Assembly: GCA_000517565.1 (NCBI GenBank)
Contig: CP007051.1
Span: 829,039-893,038 of the forward strand
DNA: 64,000 bases
Reading direction: 5' to 3'
Source of the DNA: Desulfurella acetivorans A63
GTDB lineage: Bacteria > Campylobacterota_A > Desulfurellia > Desulfurellales > Desulfurellaceae
The position numbers and the translations under genes are program-made. The notes beneath the pieces are model-generated. The model searched no databases and was not told where the DNA came from. It saw nothing but the letters and a program-made list of their open reading frames with translations. Numbering within the stretch: the first letter of the stretch is position 1; every line of letters starts with the position of its first letter. Below, piece after piece: positions 779 to 24,718 of this stretch.

Positions 779-1252
779 TTAGAAGCCGGAGTATTGTCCG
801 GAGCAGGAGTCGTAGAAAACAGGAGTATTTGAAGAGCCAGGACCGCTTGCAATTTGGCTATTAGTGCCTTTTACGGTATAGCCATAGGCACCAGCGTTTG
901 CTGTATTCGAACCGCAAGCTGCATAACTAAATTCTATGGTGTTACCTTTTGAAATATTAACTGCACCAGTAGATGTATTAGTTCCATCTGACAAATTGCA
1001 GGGTGAATTACTGCAGTCCGTTGTGGTTGGTAGATGCCCATATTGAGCATTAAATGCCTCTATTGCCGTTACAGCATTTTTTACATCGCTTCTTACTGAA
1101 TCCAGATAAGCGCCCTGTTTGTACTTTAAAAACTGCGGTATAGCAATAGCAGCCAGAATAGCTATGATTGCGATAACAATCAATAGCTCAATCAAAGTGA
1201 AACCCGCTTGCTTTTGCAAGCCCCTTTTTAGTGCCACATCGTGTTTTAACAC
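779..1252 (-). CDS. pilA: Type IV major pilin (prepilin)
   Basis: Structural subunit of a type IV pilus, processed by prepilin peptidase and assembled at the inner membrane. The leader (17 residues, MLKHDVALKRGLQKQAG) is followed by FTLIELLIVIAIIAILAAIAIPQF, the class III signal with Glu at +5 and a long hydrophobic helix. The mature chain is about 140 residues and holds four cysteines (two in the TDCSNSPC stretch, one in AACGSN, one in DSCSGQ), enough for two disulfides. I chose the GTG at 1252 because AGGAGG lies 7 bases ahead of it; an ATG 45 bases upstream (1297) has no such site. A TTGACA promoter and a hairpin terminator flank it, so it is probably monocistronic. Confidence 0.93.
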   Translation of the reverse strand: MLKHDVALKRGLQKQAGFTLIELLIVIAIIAILAAIAIPQFLKYKQGAYLDSVRSDVKNAVTAIEAFNAQYGHLPTTTDCSNSPCNLSDGTNTSTGAVNISKGNTIEFSYAACGSNTANAGAYGYTVKGTNSQIASGPGSSNTPVFYDSCSGQYSGF

Positions 1253-1284
1253 GACACACCTCCTAAATATAAAAATATATAATA

Positions 1285-1313
1285 AACTTACAATCAAAAT
1301 TACACAATGTCAA
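1285..1313 (-). promoter_or_regulatory. Sigma-70-type promoter of pilA
   Basis: On the reverse strand TTGACA (1313-1308) is followed after 17 bases by TAAGTT (1290-1285). The -35 is perfect, the -10 weak, with an alternative TTTATT slightly downstream. The predicted start lies about 25 bases ahead of the pilin GTG. I found no sigma-54 element here, although many pilA genes use one. Confidence 0.5.
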
Positions 1314-1908: not shown

Positions 1909-3876
1909 ATGGAAAAAATCACTAAAACAAAACTTGATCAATTTTTTTATCTTTTGCTTGCTGTATCAACATTTATTTTAACACATGCCTATAATGGCAT
2001 AAGGCATGATAGCATACTTTATATGGGTCAAGCACTTTTAGAGCTTCACTCAAATCTTAAGCTTGATCCTTTTTTTGTTTTTGGCTCTCAAAACAACTAC
2101 ACTATTTTTTCGCCTTTTTATGCATTTTTTATTAAACTTTTTGGGTTGAATTTTGCAAGCATATTTTTGCTATTGATTGCACAAAGTGCTTTTTTTACAA
2201 GCGTATTTTTGCTTATAAAAAAATTTACAAATTTTAATTTTGCATTTTTTGGTATAATTGTTTTATCTATAGCAAACCCATTTTACGGTGGCTATGGGAT
2301 TTTTTCTTATGGAGAGCCTTTTTTAACAGCACGTTCATTTGCTGAACCTTTAAGTCTTTTTGCTTTGTATTTTGGTTTGGACAATAAGTGGTTTTTAGCA
2401 TTTGGTTTAGGTTTTTTGGCTGGATTAATACATCCTTTGATGGCATTGCCTGCAATGTTTATTTTATGGTTTTTGTTTAGCATGCAATACAAATCTGGTT
2501 ACATTGCTTTGGTTTTAGGCATAATTTTTATTGTAATAGGCGCATATTTAGGCATTCACCCTTTTAATAAGCTTTTTCTGACATACGATAATGCATGGTG
2601 GCATTTGGTAAATATTCACAATCCATTTTGTATTTTAAGCAAGTGGAGAAACGGCAACTGGTTTCGCCTTGTTGTAAATTTTTTTACAGCAGTAGCTGGT
2701 ATATTTTATATAGAAAACAAAAAGTTAAAAGATTTGTTTATAAGTATAGTTATTGCCTGCATAATTTTTTTTGCTTTAGCCCAAATTGGAGATATGATAA
2801 AGAATGTTTTTTTTGTGAGCCTGCAATTGTGGCGTGTAAATTGGATTTTACAGTTAATTGATATGGCATTTTTGCCTTATTTGACTTATAAAATGTGGAC
2901 AAAAAATTATGTTGGCAAAATTTTGGCAATTATTTTTATAAGTATATTACTAAATCAAATAGAAAATGATTACACTACATTTTTTGAAGCTTTTTTGCTT
3001 GCCATAACTATCTTAATCTTTTATAAAACAAATATAGATTTTGATGAAAATATTAAAAGATTATTTGAAAGAAAGAATTTTGCCTGGCTTTTTACTTTGA
3101 CAATTTTAGTTTTATGTGAGAGATTTATATGGCTTTATGAGATTAGTTTTTACCCTATAGATTTTCAATTTAATTTACTTGTAATGGAAAAATGTGCTTA
3201 TTTTACTTTGGCAATGGTTTTGTTTTACGCTTTTGCAAAAGGTATAAGGATTGACGAAAAACTTCTTTATATAGTAAGCGCAAGTTCTATTGTAGCTTTA
3301 GCTATGAGTTTTTTTGGTATTGATTTTAGCAGTTTCAATTATTTTTTAGGTTTTAACGCTAATCCATACATGCTGAATAGAGCTTTTGTGCTGTTTATTA
3401 TAGGAATATTGTTTATTTTAATTTTAAGGTTAAAGGCTTTAGGTTATGTTTTGATTTCTGGTTTGTTTGTTTTATCTATTTTGCTTTGGGACCAAAGGGG
3501 CAACTGGGATTTGTACATTGAAACTCATACTACAAATAATCCGTTTTACAAATACATTCCAGAGGATTCTTCTGTATATTTTAACGGGCAATTAAAATAT
3601 GTGTGGATTTTGTTTGATAGGCCGTGTTTTTATTCAAGACAACAGTGTTCTGGTGATTTATTCAATAGAAAAAGCGCGTTTTTAATTGAAAGACGATTAA
3701 ATCTTGTAAAAAAAAATAAAAAAGATATCATAAACCTTTGTTTTGAAGATAAAAATTTAGGTTTTATTGTAAGTCAAACAAAACTGATTTATAAGCCTGT
3801 AGCTATCTGGCATACAGGAATAAAAGACGGATTTGATAATCTATATTTGTATGATTGTAAAACACTTAGAAATTGA
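1909..3876 (+). CDS. Polytopic membrane protein, possible GT-C-type glycosyltransferase
   Basis: A 655-residue protein with roughly a dozen or more hydrophobic segments and a hydrophilic C-terminal tail of about 120 residues carrying several cysteines (RPCFYSRQQCSGD). I do not recognise the family with certainty. Its architecture (an early loop after the first helix containing HDS, many helices, then a soluble tail) resembles GT-C lipid-linked-sugar transferases and O-antigen type membrane proteins. The next two genes overlap it or each other, and one is a GtrA-like protein, which supports a role with polyprenyl-linked sugars. The start has only a weak upstream purine stretch (AGGATG). Confidence 0.6.
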   Translation: MEKITKTKLDQFFYLLLAVSTFILTHAYNGIRHDSILYMGQALLELHSNLKLDPFFVFGSQNNYTIFSPFYAFFIKLFGLNFASIFLLLIAQSAFFTSVFLLIKKFTNFNFAFFGIIVLSIANPFYGGYGIFSYGEPFLTARSFAEPLSLFALYFGLDNKWFLAFGLGFLAGLIHPLMALPAMFILWFLFSMQYKSGYIALVLGIIFIVIGAYLGIHPFNKLFLTYDNAWWHLVNIHNPFCILSKWRNGNWFRLVVNFFTAVAGIFYIENKKLKDLFISIVIACIIFFALAQIGDMIKNVFFVSLQLWRVNWILQLIDMAFLPYLTYKMWTKNYVGKILAIIFISILLNQIENDYTTFFEAFLLAITILIFYKTNIDFDENIKRLFERKNFAWLFTLTILVLCERFIWLYEISFYPIDFQFNLLVMEKCAYFTLAMVLFYAFAKGIRIDEKLLYIVSASSIVALAMSFFGIDFSSFNYFLGFNANPYMLNRAFVLFIIGILFILILRLKALGYVLISGLFVLSILLWDQRGNWDLYIETHTTNNPFYKYIPEDSSVYFNGQLKYVWILFDRPCFYSRQQCSGDLFNRKSAFLIERRLNLVKKNKKDIINLCFEDKNLGFIVSQTKLIYKPVAIWHTGIKDGFDNLYLYDCKTLRN

Positions 3877-14288: not shown

Positions 14289-14957
14289 ATGGAAAATATT
14301 TGTGAAAACTTAAAAAAAATAAAACAGGAATTGGAAATTTTAAATCCAAATGTCAAATTAATGGCGGTTTCAAAAAACTTTAGCTATTTAGCTGTAAAAA
14401 AAGCTTATGAGTGCTCTCAAAAAATATTCGGGGAAAACAGAGTCCAGGAAGCAATTGAAAAAATTGAACTTGCAAAAGCAGACAATTTAGATATTCAGTG
14501 GCATTTAATAGGACACCTTCAGTTAAATAAAGCCAAAAAAGCAGTTAGCTATTTTGACTATATTGATAGTGTTGACTCAATAGTACTTGCAGAAAAATTA
14601 AATAAATACGCTCAATCTGAAAACAAAATCATAAATATAATGCTTGAAGTAAACATTGCGGGTGATTCAAAAAAATTTGGCTTTTCTAAAAATGAAGTTT
14701 TAGATGCTGCAAAGAGAATAGTTAATTTTGAAAATCTAAAACTATACGGTCTTATGTGCATTGGACCACAAGCCCAAGAAAGTGAAATTAGAAAAGCTTT
14801 TAGGGATATGAAATCAATATTTGAAGATTTAAAGAAAAGCATTTGTCCTACTTTGAGCGAGTTATCGATGGGTATGAGTGATGACTTTCGTATAGCAATC
14901 CAAGAAGGCTCGACTATTATACGCATTGGAAGGGGAATTTTTGGAGAAAGAACTTAG
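14289..14957 (+). CDS. YggS-family PLP homeostasis protein
   Basis: A 222-residue alanine-racemase-fold protein that binds pyridoxal phosphate and keeps PLP and amino-acid pools balanced; no enzymatic reaction is firmly known. The PLP lysine is K29 in LMAVSKN. The signatures FGENRVQEAIEKI, WHLIGHLQLNKAKKA, LSMGMSDDFRIAIQEGSTIIRIGRGIFG are all present. Length is normal. It heads the flagellar regulator operon; its last 17 bases overlap the preferred flhA start. AAAAGGAG precedes the ATG. Confidence 0.93.
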   Translation: MENICENLKKIKQELEILNPNVKLMAVSKNFSYLAVKKAYECSQKIFGENRVQEAIEKIELAKADNLDIQWHLIGHLQLNKAKKAVSYFDYIDSVDSIVLAEKLNKYAQSENKIINIMLEVNIAGDSKKFGFSKNEVLDAAKRIVNFENLKLYGLMCIGPQAQESEIRKAFRDMKSIFEDLKKSICPTLSELSMGMSDDFRIAIQEGSTIIRIGRGIFGERT

Positions 14958-17010
14958 TTTAATGGGTCAAATTACGCGCTTTAGCGATTTCCTTATACTT
15001 GTTGCAGTAATTATTATTCTTACAGTTTTAATTGTGCCCTTGCCACCTTTTTTGCTTGATTTTTTTATAACTATTTCTTTTGCTTCTGCATTACTTATTT
15101 TTTTTGTAAGTATTTATACACAAAGACCGCTGGATATATCGACTTTTCCTACAATACTTTTAACTGTAACCTTATTTAGATTGTCTTTAAGTATAGCAAC
15201 TACAAGAGCAATTTTGCTTCACGGAGCTCAAAGTGCCGATGCAGCTGGAGAATTTATAAAAACTTTTGGTTACTTTGTTGTTGGAGGAAGCTATGTTGTT
15301 GGTTTTATAATATTCATTATATTGGTAATAATAAATTTTGTTGTAATAACAAAAGGTGCAGGTAGAGTTGCAGAAGTTGCAGCACGCTTTACTTTGGATG
15401 CAATGCCTGGAAAGCAAATGAGTATAGATGCAGATTTAAATTCAGGAGTAATAACTGAAGCAGAGGCAAAAAAACGCAGACAGGAAATAGCCAAAGAAGC
15501 AGATTTTTACGGAGCTATGGATGGTGCAAGCAAGTTTGTAAGAGGCGATGCAATAGCGGGTCTTTTAATAACTTTTATTAACATAATAGGCGGTATAATT
15601 ATTGGCGTGCTTCAACATAAAATGGGTTTATCAGAGGCAGCTAGCAGATACACTGTACTTACTATTGGCGATGGCCTTGTTGTTCAACTACCAGCACTAA
15701 TTATTTCTACAGCAGCAGGTATTGTAATTACAAAAAGCTCAAGCGAAGAAAGTCTTGCACCTGATTTAATTAATCAGCTTACAAAACAATACAAAGCTTT
15801 GTATTTATCCGCTGCAATTTTAGCTATCCTTGCATTATTACCAGGTATGCCGCATATATTATTGATTCTTTTGGCCGCTATTTTTACTTATCTGGCTTAT
15901 TCAATTTCTCAAAAAAACCGCGAGGCTACTGAAGAAGAGAAAATTACTCAAGAACAATCGCAAGTTCCAATAGTTGAAGAAAACATCGAAGAAGCAATGA
16001 AAATTAATGTACTAGAGCTTGAAATAGGCTACGGCTTGATACATTTAACAGAAGAAACAGAAGGTGCCAATTTGCTAAATCGAATAAAATTAATGCGAAA
16101 ACAGCTAGCCTTAGATATTGGTGTTATAATACCTTCTATTAGAATAAGGGACAATCTTACTTTAGACAAAAATGAGTATATTTTTTTAATCAAAGGCATT
16201 GAAGTAGGTAAATACAGGATTGAACCGGATAAATTGCTTGCTATGTCACCTGCCCCCCTAAAGCAAATAGAAGGTATAGCCACTAAAGAACCAGCGTTTG
16301 GTTTGCAGGCAATATGGATAGATAAGGAAAAAAAGAATGAAGCAATATTAGCTGGATACACAGTAGTTGATCCAGTTACTGTCATAATTACACATATAAC
16401 CGAACTAATAAAAAGAAATATTTATGACATATTTACGCGCCAGGATGCAAGTAAATTACTTGAAAACTTAAAAGTTGATTATCCTAAAGTTATAGAAGAA
16501 TTAGGACAGTATTTAACTCTTGGTCAAGTGCATAAGGTATTAAAAAATCTTCTTAAAGAGCAAGTACCTATAAGAGATTTGCTCACAATTTTTGAAACGC
16601 TTGCCGATTGGGCTCCACATACTAAAGATCTAGATTTGCTAACAGAGTATGTAAGAAGCGCTCTAGCTTACCATATCACAAATAAATATAAGGATGAAAA
16701 TAATGTTTTAAATGTAATTTTGCTTGGCTCAAGTGCAGAAGGTATATTAAGCGCAAATATTAAAGAAGAAAGCGGTTATTCTTATATGAATCTGCCTCCA
16801 AATATTGCTGATAAGCTTATTCAAGCTACGCAAAATCAAATTGCTAAGGTTGCAGAAAATGGTATTGAGCCTATTATCGTTACATCTCCAAGGGTAAGAA
16901 GGCATTTTAAAGCGTTTCTTGAAAAATTTTTTCCTAGAGTTGCTGTACTTTCTTACTCAGAGGTTGCCAATAATGTTGAAATTAAAACATTGGGCACAAT
17001 TGAATTATGA
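14941..17010 (+). CDS. flhA: Flagellar export gate protein FlhA
   Basis: Inner-membrane component of the flagellar type III export gate, about 689 residues. The N-terminal half has eight hydrophobic segments with FASALLIFFVSIYTQRPLDISTFPTILLTVTLFRLSLSIATTRAILLHG and the conserved AEVAARFTLDAMPGKQMSIDADLNSG cytoplasmic loop. The C-terminal domain (from about 345) binds export chaperones. I favour the TTG at 14941 because AAGGGG lies 5 bases ahead of it; ATGs at 14926 and 14962 are in frame and lack a good site. flhF starts in the last four bases (ATGA). Confidence 0.95.
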   Translation: MEKELSLMGQITRFSDFLILVAVIIILTVLIVPLPPFLLDFFITISFASALLIFFVSIYTQRPLDISTFPTILLTVTLFRLSLSIATTRAILLHGAQSADAAGEFIKTFGYFVVGGSYVVGFIIFIILVIINFVVITKGAGRVAEVAARFTLDAMPGKQMSIDADLNSGVITEAEAKKRRQEIAKEADFYGAMDGASKFVRGDAIAGLLITFINIIGGIIIGVLQHKMGLSEAASRYTVLTIGDGLVVQLPALIISTAAGIVITKSSSEESLAPDLINQLTKQYKALYLSAAILAILALLPGMPHILLILLAAIFTYLAYSISQKNREATEEEKITQEQSQVPIVEENIEEAMKINVLELEIGYGLIHLTEETEGANLLNRIKLMRKQLALDIGVIIPSIRIRDNLTLDKNEYIFLIKGIEVGKYRIEPDKLLAMSPAPLKQIEGIATKEPAFGLQAIWIDKEKKNEAILAGYTVVDPVTVIITHITELIKRNIYDIFTRQDASKLLENLKVDYPKVIEELGQYLTLGQVHKVLKNLLKEQVPIRDLLTIFETLADWAPHTKDLDLLTEYVRSALAYHITNKYKDENNVLNVILLGSSAEGILSANIKEESGYSYMNLPPNIADKLIQATQNQIAKVAENGIEPIIVTSPRVRRHFKAFLEKFFPRVAVLSYSEVANNVEIKTLGTIEL

Positions 17011-18203
17011 TAATAAAAACATTTGAAGCAAATAACCTTCAAGAAGCCATAAAAAAAATAAAAAAAGAATTAGGCGAAGAAGCCGTTATTTTATCAACAA
17101 GAAAGGTAAGAAAAGGGTCTTTTTTTTCATTTTTTAAAAGAGAGGTTATCGAAGTAACTGCTGCTATTGAGCACAAACAAGAAAGTAAAAAGGCTAATTT
17201 TGTAAGCTTAATTGAGTCACAAAACATTGACTCGTCTAAACAAGATCTGGAAAAAAAGATTTTAGAGTTGGAAAATTTGTTAAAAAGCGCTACTAAAAAT
17301 CCACTTCAGGAAGTTGTAGAAAGTATTAAAAATGATCTTGATAACTTAAAAAGTTCTCTTTCATATATGGCAAAAAAAGAAGGCGAAATCGATATTTACA
17401 ATTTGCCTATTTCGGTCCAAAAGTATTTTAATCTTATGAATGAAAAAGGTATAAATAAAAAATACTCTTTCAAGATTTCAAAAGCCATGTATGATAATTT
17501 GTATGCAGAAAAATTAAAAGATGAAAATTATACCATTGATTATTTAACCGTTTTATTGTCGCAATTTTTTAAAACTGCTCAGTTAGACGAGCAAATAGTG
17601 GTACTAACTGGCCCAACAGGTGTTGGCAAAACTACAACAATAGCAAAACTTGCAGCTATTGAAAAATTAAAAAACAAAAAGAAAGTAAGTATAATTACAA
17701 CCGATACTTATCGTATAGGTGCCGTTGACCAACTATTAACATATTCAAAAATCATGGAAATACCAATGCACGTTTGTATTACAAAAAATGATCTTCAAAA
17801 AGCTGTTAATGAATTTAGTGACTACGATAAAATTTTTATTGATACCGTGGGAAGAAGCCAAAAAGATATTAAACGATTAGAAGAATCATTTAATTTATTT
17901 AAAGATCAAGAAGGCATGCATTTTAGTTTGGTTTTAGCTTTGAATACAAAAGAAGAAGATTGTATGGAAATTTACGAGAAATTTTCTAAACTCAGAATTG
18001 ATAGCCTACTTTTAACAAAATTAGACGAAACAAATACGCCGGGTACAATGCTTAATTTTGCTGTTAAAACAAAAAAACCAATTTCTTACATTAGTTTTGG
18101 GCAAGATGTTCCAGATGATATAGTTAAAGCTGATCCATTAAGTATATCTTCGTTTATTATTAAAAATACAATAAAAGAGGAAGAAAATGAACGATCAAGC
18201 TAA
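17007..18203 (+). CDS. flhF: Flagellar SRP-family GTPase FlhF
   Basis: A 398-residue SRP-type GTPase that fixes the site of flagellar assembly at the cell pole. The basic N-terminal domain (1-60) and a coiled-coil-prone linker (70-125) precede an NG domain with P-loop GPTGVGKTT (202-210), TTDTYRIGAVDQL and DTVGRS motifs, and TKLDETNTPGT as the guanine-specific site. It overlaps flhA by four bases and flhG by 17, the classic arrangement in polar flagellates. Confidence 0.95.
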   Translation: MIIKTFEANNLQEAIKKIKKELGEEAVILSTRKVRKGSFFSFFKREVIEVTAAIEHKQESKKANFVSLIESQNIDSSKQDLEKKILELENLLKSATKNPLQEVVESIKNDLDNLKSSLSYMAKKEGEIDIYNLPISVQKYFNLMNEKGINKKYSFKISKAMYDNLYAEKLKDENYTIDYLTVLLSQFFKTAQLDEQIVVLTGPTGVGKTTTIAKLAAIEKLKNKKKVSIITTDTYRIGAVDQLLTYSKIMEIPMHVCITKNDLQKAVNEFSDYDKIFIDTVGRSQKDIKRLEESFNLFKDQEGMHFSLVLALNTKEEDCMEIYEKFSKLRIDSLLLTKLDETNTPGTMLNFAVKTKKPISYISFGQDVPDDIVKADPLSISSFIIKNTIKEEENERSS

Positions 18204-19035
18204 AAAGTTAAGAGAATTGGTTGATACAAACAAGAAAAACCAGAAAGTTATAGCAGTTTCAAGTGGCAAAGGTGGTGTAGGAAAAACCAGCATTGTTGCA
18301 AATATGGCTGTAGCATTAAGCAATATAAATAAAAAAGTTATATTATTTGATGGAGATTTAGGGCTTGCAAATGTAGACATTGTATTGGGTATTAAAACAA
18401 GTTACAGTATAATTGATGTGATTAACAAATCAAAAAAATTAGAAGAAATTATTGTTGACTATAATCAAAATTTAAAAATTATACCTGCAGGCAGCGGCAT
18501 TGAAGAAATTTCCAATGTTGCAGAAAATGATTTAGGAGAAATACTAGATAAGCTTAATGAATTATCTGCTCAATCAGATGTGTTATTGATAGATACAGGT
18601 GCGGGTATATCAAAAAAAGTTATGACTCTTCTTAAAAATGCTATTGATATAATTATTGTGGCAACACCTGAGCCAACATCAATAGCCGATGCTTATGCAA
18701 CAATTAAAATATTGACTTTAAATTACAAGCGAAAAGATATTAAAATGTTTATAAATATGGTAAAAGATAAACAAGAAGCTCAAAATGTTTTTAATAATAT
18801 GAACAATATTTGTGAAAAATTTTTACATACAAAACTTGATATGGCAAGTTATAGTTTGTTTGATAAAAACCTGTCAAGTTCAATCAAAAGTCAAAAACCA
18901 ATTATTCAATACAACCCTGACTCAAGTTTCTCTATTTCTATCAAAAGATTGATAAATTACTTTTTTTCTCAAAACATTAAACTTATTGACAATCCAATAA
19001 AAATGTTTTTTAATAATCTATTTGGGAGGGTTTAA
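18187..19035 (+). CDS. flhG: Flagellar number regulator FlhG (MinD/ParA-like ATPase)
   Basis: A 282-residue MinD-family ATPase that limits flagellar number and antagonises FlhF. It has the deviant Walker A SSGKGGVGKTS near residues 25-35, LFDGDLGLANVDIVLG, the DTGAGIS switch and VATPEPTSIADAYATIK. The N-terminus carries a short QAKKLRELV helix like the FlhF-activating motif of other FlhG proteins. The stop overlaps the next gene's ATG by one base. The usual next genes fliA and the motor switch are elsewhere: fliA lies at 57805. Confidence 0.94.
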   Translation: MNDQAKKLRELVDTNKKNQKVIAVSSGKGGVGKTSIVANMAVALSNINKKVILFDGDLGLANVDIVLGIKTSYSIIDVINKSKKLEEIIVDYNQNLKIIPAGSGIEEISNVAENDLGEILDKLNELSAQSDVLLIDTGAGISKKVMTLLKNAIDIIIVATPEPTSIADAYATIKILTLNYKRKDIKMFINMVKDKQEAQNVFNNMNNICEKFLHTKLDMASYSLFDKNLSSSIKSQKPIIQYNPDSSFSISIKRLINYFFSQNIKLIDNPIKMFFNNLFGRV

Positions 19036-21748: not shown

Positions 21749-22762
21749 ATGCTAAAGGTATTAGATAAAAGCAAGAAAGCTTATTTAGTTTTAGATGATA
21801 ATTTGCTTGCAAAAATCTTGCAGTATATTTTAAGCACAGATGGATGGTCTGTTGATTGGGTTGATGATCCCCGTCAGATTAAAGAAGATATTGCGAATTA
21901 TAATTTAATTATAATAGGAAATCATAAAGGCTTAACTACTAAATCAAAACTTGCCGAAGTTTTTTTAGAAAAAATAAATGCAAATAATTTAGAGCCTGGC
22001 TTTATTAAGCCAACTATCGTCATTTTAAAAGACGAAACAGACATTATTCCAAATACAAAAGATGTTATAAGTATTGTTTATCCATCATTTCATAAAGAAA
22101 TATTTGCAGCTATTTCAAACATTAATAATAAATTCAAAACTTTAGAAAGAATATCTTTTGATAATTTTAAAGAAGTTAGGCTTGGTGAGTTTTTAAATTC
22201 TATTAGAAGTAACCAAAAAATTAGTTTTTTGGTTGGCAATAGACAGCTTAAAATTCTTATAGTGGGAAGTGAAATAAACTTCATACATTCTGATTTTGAA
22301 AATTTTTATGATATATTTAACTATCCAACACTTTATGTTGCCCAAGACATTATAGAGATATCCGATTTATCAAATATATCCAATGAAAGAACTCCAAGAA
22401 TTAGTTTAAAAAATTTCGTTTGGGAAGGGATTAAAAATATTGATAATAAAGAACATCTTATGTCTTTGCTTCCAAAAGATAGAAATATTGTAACTGTAAA
22501 AGCACCACTATATGCCGTAAAAAGCTCTTTATTGCCTGGTAGTAATTTAGATATTAATTGGTTAATGAATAACTCTAATATTAGCGTAGATAAAATTCTA
22601 AGACGATATGGCTATGATATAAGAGTTTTACAAAACCTTGTAGTAATGTACATGTTGAGAATAATTGATTTGTCATCTGATCAAGATTTAACAAATAAGT
22701 TCGATGTAAAGATAAAAAAAGGTGTTTTGCATAAAATTTTAGATAAAATTAGAGGTTTGTAA
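21749..22762 (+). CDS. Degenerate receiver plus PATAN-like protein
   Basis: A 337-residue soluble protein. Residues about 10-120 look like a response-regulator receiver (AYLVLDDNLLAKILQYILSTDGWSVDWVDD) whose phospho-acceptor Asp seems lost: the third strand reads NLIIIGNHKG where LIIID would be expected. Residues about 140-337 match the protein at 17-709, including DINWL, TVKAPLY and LVVMYM blocks. Family label PATAN/DUF4388 is tentative. The gene ends 3 bases before an MglA-like GTPase, so the pair is cotranscribed and the products probably interact. The ATG at 21749 lies just behind the promoter with no ribosome site. Confidence 0.75.
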   Translation: MLKVLDKSKKAYLVLDDNLLAKILQYILSTDGWSVDWVDDPRQIKEDIANYNLIIIGNHKGLTTKSKLAEVFLEKINANNLEPGFIKPTIVILKDETDIIPNTKDVISIVYPSFHKEIFAAISNINNKFKTLERISFDNFKEVRLGEFLNSIRSNQKISFLVGNRQLKILIVGSEINFIHSDFENFYDIFNYPTLYVAQDIIEISDLSNISNERTPRISLKNFVWEGIKNIDNKEHLMSLLPKDRNIVTVKAPLYAVKSSLLPGSNLDINWLMNNSNISVDKILRRYGYDIRVLQNLVVMYMLRIIDLSSDQDLTNKFDVKIKKGVLHKILDKIRGL

Positions 22763-22765
22763 AAA

Positions 22766-23296
22766 ATGGCTATTTACAAAATAATTGTTACAGGTAGTTT
22801 TAATTCAGGTAAAACAGAATTTATTAAATGTATAAGCGAAATTGATCCAATTACAACTGATAAACCGGTTACAGAAGAAGGGTTAAAAGATATAAAAAGT
22901 TTTACTACTGTGGCTATTGATTTTGGCACAATTACAATTGACAAAGAAATTATAATACATATTTACGCAACACCTGGCCAAGAGCGCTTTAAATTTATAT
23001 ACGATATATTAGAAAAAAATGCCCTTGCTTTAATAGTACTTGGAGATATAACGAGTAAAGAATCCGTTTCCAATATGTACAAATATTATCGCGAATTTAT
23101 GAAAATAAAAAGACTGCCTGCGGTATTTGCACTTACAAAAAAGGATTTACCAAATAGAATAGATGATAAGGTTATAGAACAACTACTTTCCAATAAACCA
23201 AAAGACATACCTTTAATTAAGATTTCAAACAAAAACAAAGAAGAAGTAAAGCAAGCGATACTGCTTGCTTTAGAGCAATTAGTTGCAGAAGATTGA
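22766..23296 (+). CDS. MglA-like small Ras-family GTPase
   Basis: A 176-residue single-domain GTPase. P-loop GSFNSGKT (10-17), switch II DxxG replaced by ATPGQERF (68-75), and the guanine-specificity motif TKKD (124-127) are all visible; a FTTVAIDFGTI stretch gives the switch I region. MglA and related bacterial GTPases set cell polarity and work with MglB-type roadblock activators. A roadblock protein is encoded at 24353-24718 on the other strand. The partner ahead is a receiver/PATAN protein. The end lies 7 bases from the convergent sensor gene. Confidence 0.88.
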   Translation: MAIYKIIVTGSFNSGKTEFIKCISEIDPITTDKPVTEEGLKDIKSFTTVAIDFGTITIDKEIIIHIYATPGQERFKFIYDILEKNALALIVLGDITSKESVSNMYKYYREFMKIKRLPAVFALTKKDLPNRIDDKVIEQLLSNKPKDIPLIKISNKNKEEVKQAILLALEQLVAED

Positions 23297-23303
23297 TTTT
23301 AGA

Positions 23304-24341
23304 TTAATCTTTAAAGCCTATCCTTAAAGCGCCCCAATGCTTTCCATTGATCATTACAGGCATGGAGATGTCATACATAATTTTGCCAAGGTCTCTTGGA
23401 TATATTTGAAATAAAATAGGATCTGTATTTTTTGCAGCGGCAAGACCTGTTGGGTCATTAAATATGCGCATTGATCGGTTTCCTGCAAGGTCTTTTTGAT
23501 AATCGCCTGTTAGTGGTTGATCATATATTGTATTGTGCGCGGGTAAATAACCGTTTTCATCAACCAACACTACAAAAACAAATTTTTTGTTTAGATTTAG
23601 TACTTCATCTTCAATTGGTTGAATGAATTTTTTCATGAAATCAGTAAATTTTGTTTTGTATTTTTGAGGGTTTGTATTTTCTATTGGGATATAATTTCTA
23701 TCCCAGAGTTCTTCTTCGGATATCACACCATCCTTTAGTGCATTTTCTATTGTAGTTTGTATTTTTTCTACAGATGATTTTAAAATTTCATAAATTGATT
23801 TAAAAGCATCATCTTCTTCAAAGATAAAACTCATAATACAATCTTGAGGTTCTTTTTTCATGTAGCCTTTTTCTTCTTTTTTCATTTTGGGTGTTAAAAA
23901 TGAAAGTGTATTTTTAGCTAAAACATCAAAATATGTAGAAAAAAGTGGAGGGTATGGACATACGCTAGTATCAACTGGACCGCCACCTACACCAACTGGG
24001 CAAAACATACAAGAGTCTTTTCTAATGTTTATTGTAGCTATCATTTTTGAATTTTCTTGAGTAATAGATACATTGTAATGATTTGCAAATTGGAGGTATT
24101 CGTTTAAAGCATCAAGGGCTTTTTTAATGTTAATATCCAGACTATCTTGTGGATTGAATTTTGGCAACAGATTTTTATACATTTGATGCAATACTAACCT
24201 TTGCGCTGTTGCTTTCATTGCAGGCACTATTATGGCTTGATTCATTATACCCAAATCATAAGAAGACCCAACCAAAGATGCCCAAAAAACATGAGCACCA
24301 GTCAATTTTTCAAGTCGTTCTTTTTTCTCTTCTTCGCTCAC
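23304..24341 (-). CDS. Orphan sensor protein with cysteine motif and chemoreceptor-type C-terminal domain
   Basis: A 345-residue soluble protein. The C-terminal 90 residues (FVFVVLVDENGYLPAHN..., GNRSMRIFNDPTGLAAAKNTDPILFQIYPRDLG..., GKHWGALRIGF) match a domain found at the end of some methyl-accepting chemotaxis proteins. The N-terminal part is unknown to me; it holds C111-M-F-C114 and C128 in a CPVGVGGGPVDTSVCP stretch that could bind metal or heme. There is no methyl-accepting, kinase or GGDEF output domain. It starts at a GTG with AAAGGAG ahead, 11 bases after the roadblock gene, so both form one operon. It probably feeds a signal to the GTPase switch. Confidence 0.7.
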   Translation of the reverse strand: MSEEEKKERLEKLTGAHVFWASLVGSSYDLGIMNQAIIVPAMKATAQRLVLHQMYKNLLPKFNPQDSLDINIKKALDALNEYLQFANHYNVSITQENSKMIATINIRKDSCMFCPVGVGGGPVDTSVCPYPPLFSTYFDVLAKNTLSFLTPKMKKEEKGYMKKEPQDCIMSFIFEEDDAFKSIYEILKSSVEKIQTTIENALKDGVISEEELWDRNYIPIENTNPQKYKTKFTDFMKKFIQPIEDEVLNLNKKFVFVVLVDENGYLPAHNTIYDQPLTGDYQKDLAGNRSMRIFNDPTGLAAAKNTDPILFQIYPRDLGKIMYDISMPVMINGKHWGALRIGFKD

Positions 24342-24352
24342 AATACGCTCCT

Positions 24353-24718
24353 TTACGACATTAATTCTTTTAGTTTTTTTGATGTGTTTTTAATGTCCAA
24401 ATAAAGCAAACCCAGCTTTACATCAGGTTTTGCAAGCACAATTAAAACTGCTTCACTGCCAGCTGATGTCAATATAATGTAGCCTTTATCACCTTTAACT
24501 GTAACCTGCTCAGGTACGCCTTTTTCTAATTCGTCCACTGCCCGCTCACCCAATGTTAGCAATGCAGCTGACATTGCAGCAACCCTGTCTTCATCAAAAT
24601 TAGCTGGCAACTGTGAGCTTATCATCAAACCATCCGAACTAACTAAAGCTGAACCTTCAATTTGCGGATTTAATCTAACTAATTCTGCCAATTGAGCATT
24701 GAGATCTTCTTCTTTCAT
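24353..24718 (-). CDS. MglB-like roadblock/LC7 protein
   Basis: A 121-residue roadblock/LC7 domain protein. LAELVRLNPQIEGSALVSSDGLMISSQLP, DRVAAMSAALLTLGERAVDEL, VTVKGDKGYIILTSAGSEAVLIVLAKPDVKLGLLYLDIKNTSKKL follow the family pattern along the whole chain. MglB is the GTPase-activating partner of MglA in Myxococcus and Thermus, and the MglA-like gene lies 1 kb away facing this one. AGGAGG-like GGAGG precedes the ATG, and a strong TTGACA/TATAAA promoter lies upstream. Confidence 0.9.
   Translation of the reverse strand: MKEEDLNAQLAELVRLNPQIEGSALVSSDGLMISSQLPANFDEDRVAAMSAALLTLGERAVDELEKGVPEQVTVKGDKGYIILTSAGSEAVLIVLAKPDVKLGLLYLDIKNTSKKLKELMS

Follow-up and report, generated by a model that had tools for sequence, protein, structure and literature searches.

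Do the four genes that meet tail to tail in the bacterium Desulfurella acetivorans A63 form one signalling system, and if so, what would be its input and its output? The genes (P0001 to P0004) lie in a 64-kb stretch of DNA, hereafter the window (contig CP007051.1, positions 829,039 to 893,038), of a 1.82-Mb genome assembled in two contigs. They encode a degenerate receiver with a PATAN-like region, a Ras-like GTPase, a soluble two-domain sensor and a roadblock/LC7 protein. The combination of GTPase, roadblock and PATAN proteins is already known; what is added here is the sensor, which joins a predicted TRAPPC3/V4R-type fold to a Cache domain and is conserved beside the roadblock gene. We lean modestly towards the view that the four genes make up one cytoplasmic module, a sensor-regulated GTPase switch reminiscent of platforms built from roadblock and TRAPP proteins.

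All four open reading frames (ORFs) are intact and form two convergent pairs, as in an earlier note on this DNA, which described two convergent operons 7 bases apart. P0001 (21749-22762, plus strand, 337 residues) is followed after 3 bases by P0002 (22766-23296, plus strand, 176 residues). The minus strand carries P0004 (24353-24718, 121 residues) and then P0003 (23304-24341, 345 residues, GTG start), and the 7 bases at 23297-23303 separate the stop codons of P0002 and P0003. Measured against a congener, the ratio of nonsynonymous to synonymous substitution rates (dN/dS) is approximately 0.10 for P0001, 0.04 for P0002, 0.05 for P0003 and 0.01 for P0004, with dS near saturation. Synonymous changes thus strongly outnumber amino-acid changes, so these are real genes under selection. 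Their orthologues are uninterrupted throughout the order, which includes both Desulfurella and its sister family (here called Hippea-like).

The sensor and its roadblock neighbour

Sequence searches say little about P0003. Neither it nor any of 15 family members has a credible Pfam match, no transmembrane segment is predicted, Pfam finds no MCP signalling domain in it, and its sequence gives only weak, chance-level matches in the PDB. Structure prediction is more informative: an AlphaFold2 model built from 24 sequences is of fair to good quality, with a predicted local distance difference test score (pLDDT) of 82 and a predicted template modelling score (pTM) of 0.82. It shows two domains.

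The N-terminal domain, or N-domain (residues 11-175; 23817-24311, minus strand), is predicted to have the Bet3/TRAPPC3/V4R fold. When residues 11-181 of the model were searched with VIA-align, they matched mouse Bet3 (1wc8; Z 11.5 over 148 residues, root-mean-square deviation 3.1) and TRAPPC3 of a Thorarchaeota archaeon (7yh3; Z 11.1). The remaining VIA-align matches are TRAPP subunits and BcsD, and the latter is no competitor to the TRAPPC3 fold because BcsD (as AxCeSD) is itself a listed structural relative of TRAPPC3 (PMC10933270). A Foldseek search with the model adds the V4R domains of MopR and PoxR. Assignment to the V4R family (PF02830) by sequence was also considered and is excluded, given the lack of a Pfam match in the 15 members and an hhalign probability of 1.6 against a local V4R profile. 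The link between the N-domain and V4R therefore rests on predicted structure.

Three cysteines of the N-domain (C111, C114 and C128, in the pattern CxxCPxGVG...CPxP) are invariant. A fourth, near residue 167, is present in Desulfurella and in stand-alone relatives of the domain and absent from the Hippea-like proteins. This set is zinc-site-like and may correspond to the four-cysteine zinc site of TRAPPC3/V4R proteins, with a fourth position that varies. Folds of the TRAPPC3/V4R type usually hold hydrophobic or aromatic ligands.

Small proteins that consist of the N-domain alone are also found in a scattering of bacteria and archaea. This stand-alone family shares the cysteine pattern, has no Pfam name and ranges from Polyangiaceae to Pyrodictiaceae archaea (L158-L170). 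The Desulfurella genome separately holds two V4R genes, one just left of the window (L127:12515-12997, on contig C1) and another at L242:2854-3336. One of the two stands beside genes of fatty-acid or aromatic type, for a FadL-like porin, an acyl-CoA ligase and a BcrA/BadF-type ATPase; the other stands beside an XRE regulator and an enoyl-CoA hydratase-like gene. All of these neighbours except the ATPase were named by reading their sequences.

The C-terminal domain of P0003 (residues 177-345; 23307-23813, minus strand) is predicted to have a Cache/PAS fold, since VIA-align matches residues 172-345 to the Cache/PAS sensor domains of WalK (4ywz; Z 12.2) and Tlp3 (Z 11.3). Three chemoreceptors encoded in the same genome end in a stretch that is 56-58% identical to residues 174-344 of P0003, and approximately three chemoreceptors per genome share this domain. 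P0003 has only the ligand domain in common with them; the matched chemoreceptor also carries an MCPsignal domain (4e-44), which is absent from P0003. The earlier note had called P0003 a soluble sensor with a chemoreceptor-type C-terminal domain, which agrees with the missing transmembrane segment and with these matches, but it overlooked the TRAPPC3/V4R-fold half of the protein. As a separate observation, two chemoreceptors of this genome (L239:495-2192 and L240:518-2194) are near-identical from approximately residue 110 onwards and differ in their N-terminal membrane part, a pattern that recent duplication or gene conversion would leave.

So close a likeness raises the idea that P0003 reports the chemoreceptors' ligand to the GTPase, coordinating swimming with surface behaviour. 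Genes resembling flhA, flhF and flhG (read from sequence), followed by a ccdA-like gene, do lie a few kilobases upstream (14926-19035, plus strand). However, P0003 has no MCP signalling domain, no che genes are found within the cluster, and the flagellar neighbours are not kept beside the GTPase gene in Hippea-like genomes. We consider a chemotaxis link very doubtful.

P0004 is a roadblock/LC7 protein, as first proposed: it matches Pfam Robl_LC7 at 1e-19, is the only such match in the genome at the threshold used, and matches PDB entry 7f8m with an E-value of 4e-29. It contains an Asp-Gly pair (SSDGLM) of the kind reported for the roadblock partners of MglA Groups 2-5 (PMC4316618). Of the 16 genomes of the order that have both P0003 and P0004, 13 have the two genes next to each other, and Desulfurella and the Hippea-like family have them in opposite order. 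That the pair persists despite this rearrangement speaks for a functional link.

The GTPase and its PATAN-like neighbour

P0002 matches Pfam Ras (6e-12), and its family profile matches Sec4/Rab1 and Thermus MglA (3t12) in the PDB. It has the GSFNSGKT P-loop, the ATPGQERF stretch (ATPGQ at G3) and the TKKD motif (G4) that the earlier note listed, together with TT at G2. It has all three MglA-family signatures (GxxxxGK[TS], xxPGQ and [NT]KxD; PMC4316618). A whole-genome search found it to be the single GTPase of this kind in Desulfurella, and other genomes of the order likewise have one each.

Group 1 MglA proteins (Myxococcus, Thermus) have an Arg beside the G2 Thr, which acts as an intrinsic finger, and TVPGQ at G3; in Groups 2-5 a Thr replaces that Arg and G3 reads GTPGQ, while Groups 1, 4 and 5 keep [NT]KxD (PMC4316618). 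P0002 and its homologues have TT with ATPGQ or GTPGQ, with neither the Arg nor TVPGQ, so a Myxococcus-type (Group 1) assignment is excluded. For this reason, control of polarity as in Myxococcus, the analogy drawn by the earlier note, is not simply transferable. Judged by motifs, Group 5 fits best, with every one of its features matched except that this order has Ala in place of Gly in ATPGQ. Some Group 5 members are reported to have PATAN neighbours (PMC4316618; Makarova et al. 2006 cited there), and among Group-5-type GTPase loci we found a PATAN or receiver-PATAN neighbour at 21 of the 23 assessed, in several bacterial families. Within this order, the genes for P0001 and P0002 adjoin each other wherever the contig permits assessment.

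P0001 on its own gives nothing credible in Pfam. Its putative layout is a degenerate receiver (approximately residues 1-130), a PATAN-like/winged-helix region (approximately residues 140-305) and a conserved basic C-terminal tail (IKKGVLHKILDKIRGL). The family profile matches receiver domains in the PDB (E 2e-6) and Response_reg is weakly matched in 7 of 16 family members. At the phospho-acceptor position P0001 reads IIIGNHKG, and the Asp is missing from the family alignment. We therefore regard it as a pseudo-receiver, which bears out the earlier description of a degenerate receiver.

The PATAN-like assignment, also made at first reading, was assessed by comparing the P0001 family with DUF4388 (PATAN) profiles. 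Against a general DUF4388 profile, hhalign gave a probability of 56 (E 1e-4), in an alignment that includes the winged-helix-like tail. With a profile of DUF4388 proteins mostly encoded beside such GTPases elsewhere, the probability rose to 83 (E 1e-5), in an alignment that takes in a basic C-terminal tail present on both sides. In addition, one family member matches a hidden Markov model (HMM) built from DUF4388 at 2e-5. These comparisons make a good but not conclusive argument for a PATAN-like/winged-helix region. A structure model of P0001, made from two sequences, is poor (pLDDT 56), and structure searches with it were uninformative. The amphipathicity of the basic tail is not clearly above that of shuffled sequences, so we claim only its conservation.

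A winged helix at this position could mean transcription control, with the C-terminal end of P0001 binding DNA and the GTPase gating that binding, a mechanism already suggested for Group 3 MglA. In those systems, MglA and one or two MglB proteins are accompanied by a receiver-like/winged-helix-like protein whose layout is close to that of P0001 (PMC4316618), and hhalign places the C-terminal part of P0001 on just that tail of DUF4388 proteins. However, the winged-helix region of P0001 is only predicted and its structure model is poor, many PATAN proteins share the tail with no known DNA binding, and no DNA target was seen. Direct action on transcription thus seems to us an improbable role.

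An output at the type IV pilus or in another surface behaviour is favoured instead. Cyanobacterial PATAN response regulators have been linked to type IV pili, and one of them, PixE, is reported to bind PilB1 (PMC7690835). PilB- and PilT-type ATPases are encoded in the Desulfurella genome. A paralogue of P0001 (2-709, plus strand; 30% identity, E 1e-34) runs past the left end of the window, its full length in the genome being 330 codons. It is convergent with a gene for a type IV pilin (779-1297, minus strand; N_methyl 5e-10). Together, the action of PATAN proteins on PilB in other organisms, the PilB- and PilT-type ATPases of this genome and the paralogue that meets a pilin gene lead us to prefer this output. 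No GTPase gene was found beside the paralogue. The pilin gene is also adjoined by a 655-residue ORF (1909-3876, plus strand) with no Pfam match.

Conservation and the case for one module

All four genes stand together only in Desulfurella, where they do so in 3 of 3 genomes. In one draft (G001) the four-gene region appears on two near-identical contigs, C4 and C10, probably an assembly duplicate. The earlier note had suggested looking for the four-gene neighbourhood in Desulfurella and Hippea, and its expectation holds in the former; in Hippea-like genomes, the two pairs lie approximately 100 kb or more apart where both are on the same contig. A terminator-like hairpin for the P0004-P0003 transcript (23247-23272, minus strand; a 10-bp stem with a T-rich tail, from a pattern scan) falls within the 3' end of P0002, but the evidence for it is weak.

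This distribution suggests that the pairs may be two separate modules, neighbours by chance in this genus, with the roadblock protein serving something other than the GTPase. The distance between the Hippea-like pairs speaks for it, as it makes each pair the conserved unit. On the other hand, chance adjacency of two given pairs has a probability of approximately 0.001, and each genome of the order has one such GTPase and one roadblock protein. In a set of 36 outgroup genomes, presence of the GTPase goes with that of roadblock proteins (p 5e-6) and with that of DUF4388 (p 3e-5).

Arrangements elsewhere also argue against separate modules. G020, from the same class but another family, unites all of the types in one operon, an overlapping run of receiver-PATAN, GTPase, roadblock-like, roadblock and V4R genes (V4R 1e-16). 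In G068, a distant bacterium, four successive genes with little space between them (L266:6389-9864) encode a PAS histidine kinase, a roadblock protein, an N-domain protein and a receiver-DUF4388 protein, and the last of these (Response_reg 3e-26, DUF4388 1e-22) has the layout inferred for P0001. G068 is the only genome outside the class to have the N-domain among 252 genomes, and the probability that its N-domain gene would fall within 200 bp of a roadblock gene by chance is approximately 0.0005. With these findings set against the Hippea-like spacing, we judge two separate modules unlikely.

Less complete arrangements were seen in three other genomes. In G013, P0003, a roadblock protein and a V4R-like protein are encoded consecutively, with an in-frame stop in P0003 in what is a draft assembly. 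G021 has genes for a Ras-like protein, a V4R protein, a roadblock protein and DUF4388 within approximately 4 kb, and G037 has a contig-cut gene for a V4R-like protein after its roadblock gene (weak). Searches with home-made HMMs covered 77 further roadblock stretches, where one besides G068 has a V4R gene, approximately 4 kb off; in the named genome collection, they found no GTPase genes beside stand-alone N-domain proteins. A TRAPPC3/V4R-fold partner is therefore a trait of some lineages and not of roadblock systems generally.

Several results weigh against a single module with the composition that we propose. Four-way adjacency is restricted to one genus. V4R shows no significant co-occurrence with the GTPase (p 0.29) or with roadblock proteins in the 36 outgroup genomes, and in most other taxa stand-alone N-domain genes adjoin metabolic genes, not GTPases. 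Similarity of the N-domain to V4R is not significant by sequence profile, P0001 as a single sequence has no credible Pfam match (DUF4388 included), and no output gene is found among the cluster genes. Nevertheless, because each pair is conserved beyond the genus, the four proteins probably work together, so the earlier proposal of one four-gene system is retained in that form and limited to one genus as regards adjacency.

If the four genes do form a sensor-regulated switch, the signal would be a small molecule, sensed by the Cache/PAS domain of P0003, by its pocketed N-domain or by the two together. P0003 and a roadblock dimer of P0004 would then contact P0002 and set its nucleotide state, one or other of them acting as exchange factor or GTPase activator. 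GTP-bound P0002 would in turn switch its dedicated partner P0001, which may be the output or an adaptor. The most likely end point would be the type IV pilus or other surface behaviour, with direct transcriptional control as the alternative.

Relation to known systems

Group 1 MglA/MglB systems (Myxococcus, Thermus) resemble this one in having a Ras-like GTPase and a roadblock regulator, and the Desulfurella genome has type IV pilus ATPases too. They differ in the intrinsic Arg finger and in TVPGQ, where P0002 has no such finger and has ATPGQ; here a PATAN partner and a TRAPPC3/V4R-Cache sensor are added, and no RomR-like gene was seen in the cluster. Group 3 systems (beta- and gamma-proteobacteria) are alike in their receiver-like/winged-helix-like partner, MglA and one or two MglB proteins (PMC4316618), but P0002 keeps the TKxD motif from which Group 3 deviates, and the TRAPPC3/V4R-fold protein is an addition. 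Actinobacterial conservons (CvnA-D) likewise encode a GTPase and a roadblock protein with a sensor. In contrast to them, P0001 to P0004 include no histidine kinase or CvnC-like protein, and the sensor is soluble and of a different fold.

Group 5 MglA proteins with PATAN neighbours share both the GTPase signatures and the adjoining PATAN gene (PMC4316618). In our locus, the PATAN-like region forms one protein with a degenerate receiver and is too divergent for Pfam, and a sensor pair is not described in that study. The Desulfurella sensor points to a possible input for Group 5 systems, which are for the most part uncharacterised.

Asgard archaea have GTPase, roadblock and TRAPPC3 proteins that have been proposed to work together (PMC10933270). 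As a rule, the GTPase genes of the Asgard archaeon MK-D1 do not share an operon with genes for roadblock, longin or TRAPPC3 proteins, which makes it difficult to assign partners (PMC10933270). By comparison, the bacterial genes described here adjoin one another, and a single protein joins the TRAPPC3-fold domain to a Cache domain. In the literature searched, which left most subscription journals outside its reach, we found no earlier report of TRAPPC3/V4R-roadblock-GTPase gene linkage in bacteria.

The likeness to eukaryotic TRAPP is one of parts: a Bet3/TRAPPC3 fold beside small roadblock/longin-type proteins that act on a Ras-like GTPase. In TRAPP complexes, subunits of the TRAPPC3 and roadblock/longin folds activate Rab GTPases. 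By analogy, P0003 and P0004 could do in bacteria, under the control of a ligand, what the TRAPP core does, with a TRAPPC3-fold dimer sitting on a roadblock dimer and the two jointly catalysing or blocking nucleotide exchange on the Ras-like GTPase. The Cache domain and the hydrophobic pocket would then make exchange metabolite-dependent. We regard so specific an equivalence as a long shot. The system differs from eukaryotic TRAPP in having no sequence similarity to it, in that any exchange activity is putative, and in the fusion of the bacterial protein to a ligand sensor. According to an earlier proposal, Bet3 descends from the prokaryotic V4R domain (PMC2253512). Bacteria place genes for TRAPPC3/V4R-fold proteins, roadblock proteins and a Ras-like GTPase or PATAN partner together in several unrelated arrangements, and small sets of thermophile proteins thus allow the pairing of a TRAPPC3-fold and roadblock platform with a Ras-like GTPase to be tested outside eukaryotes.

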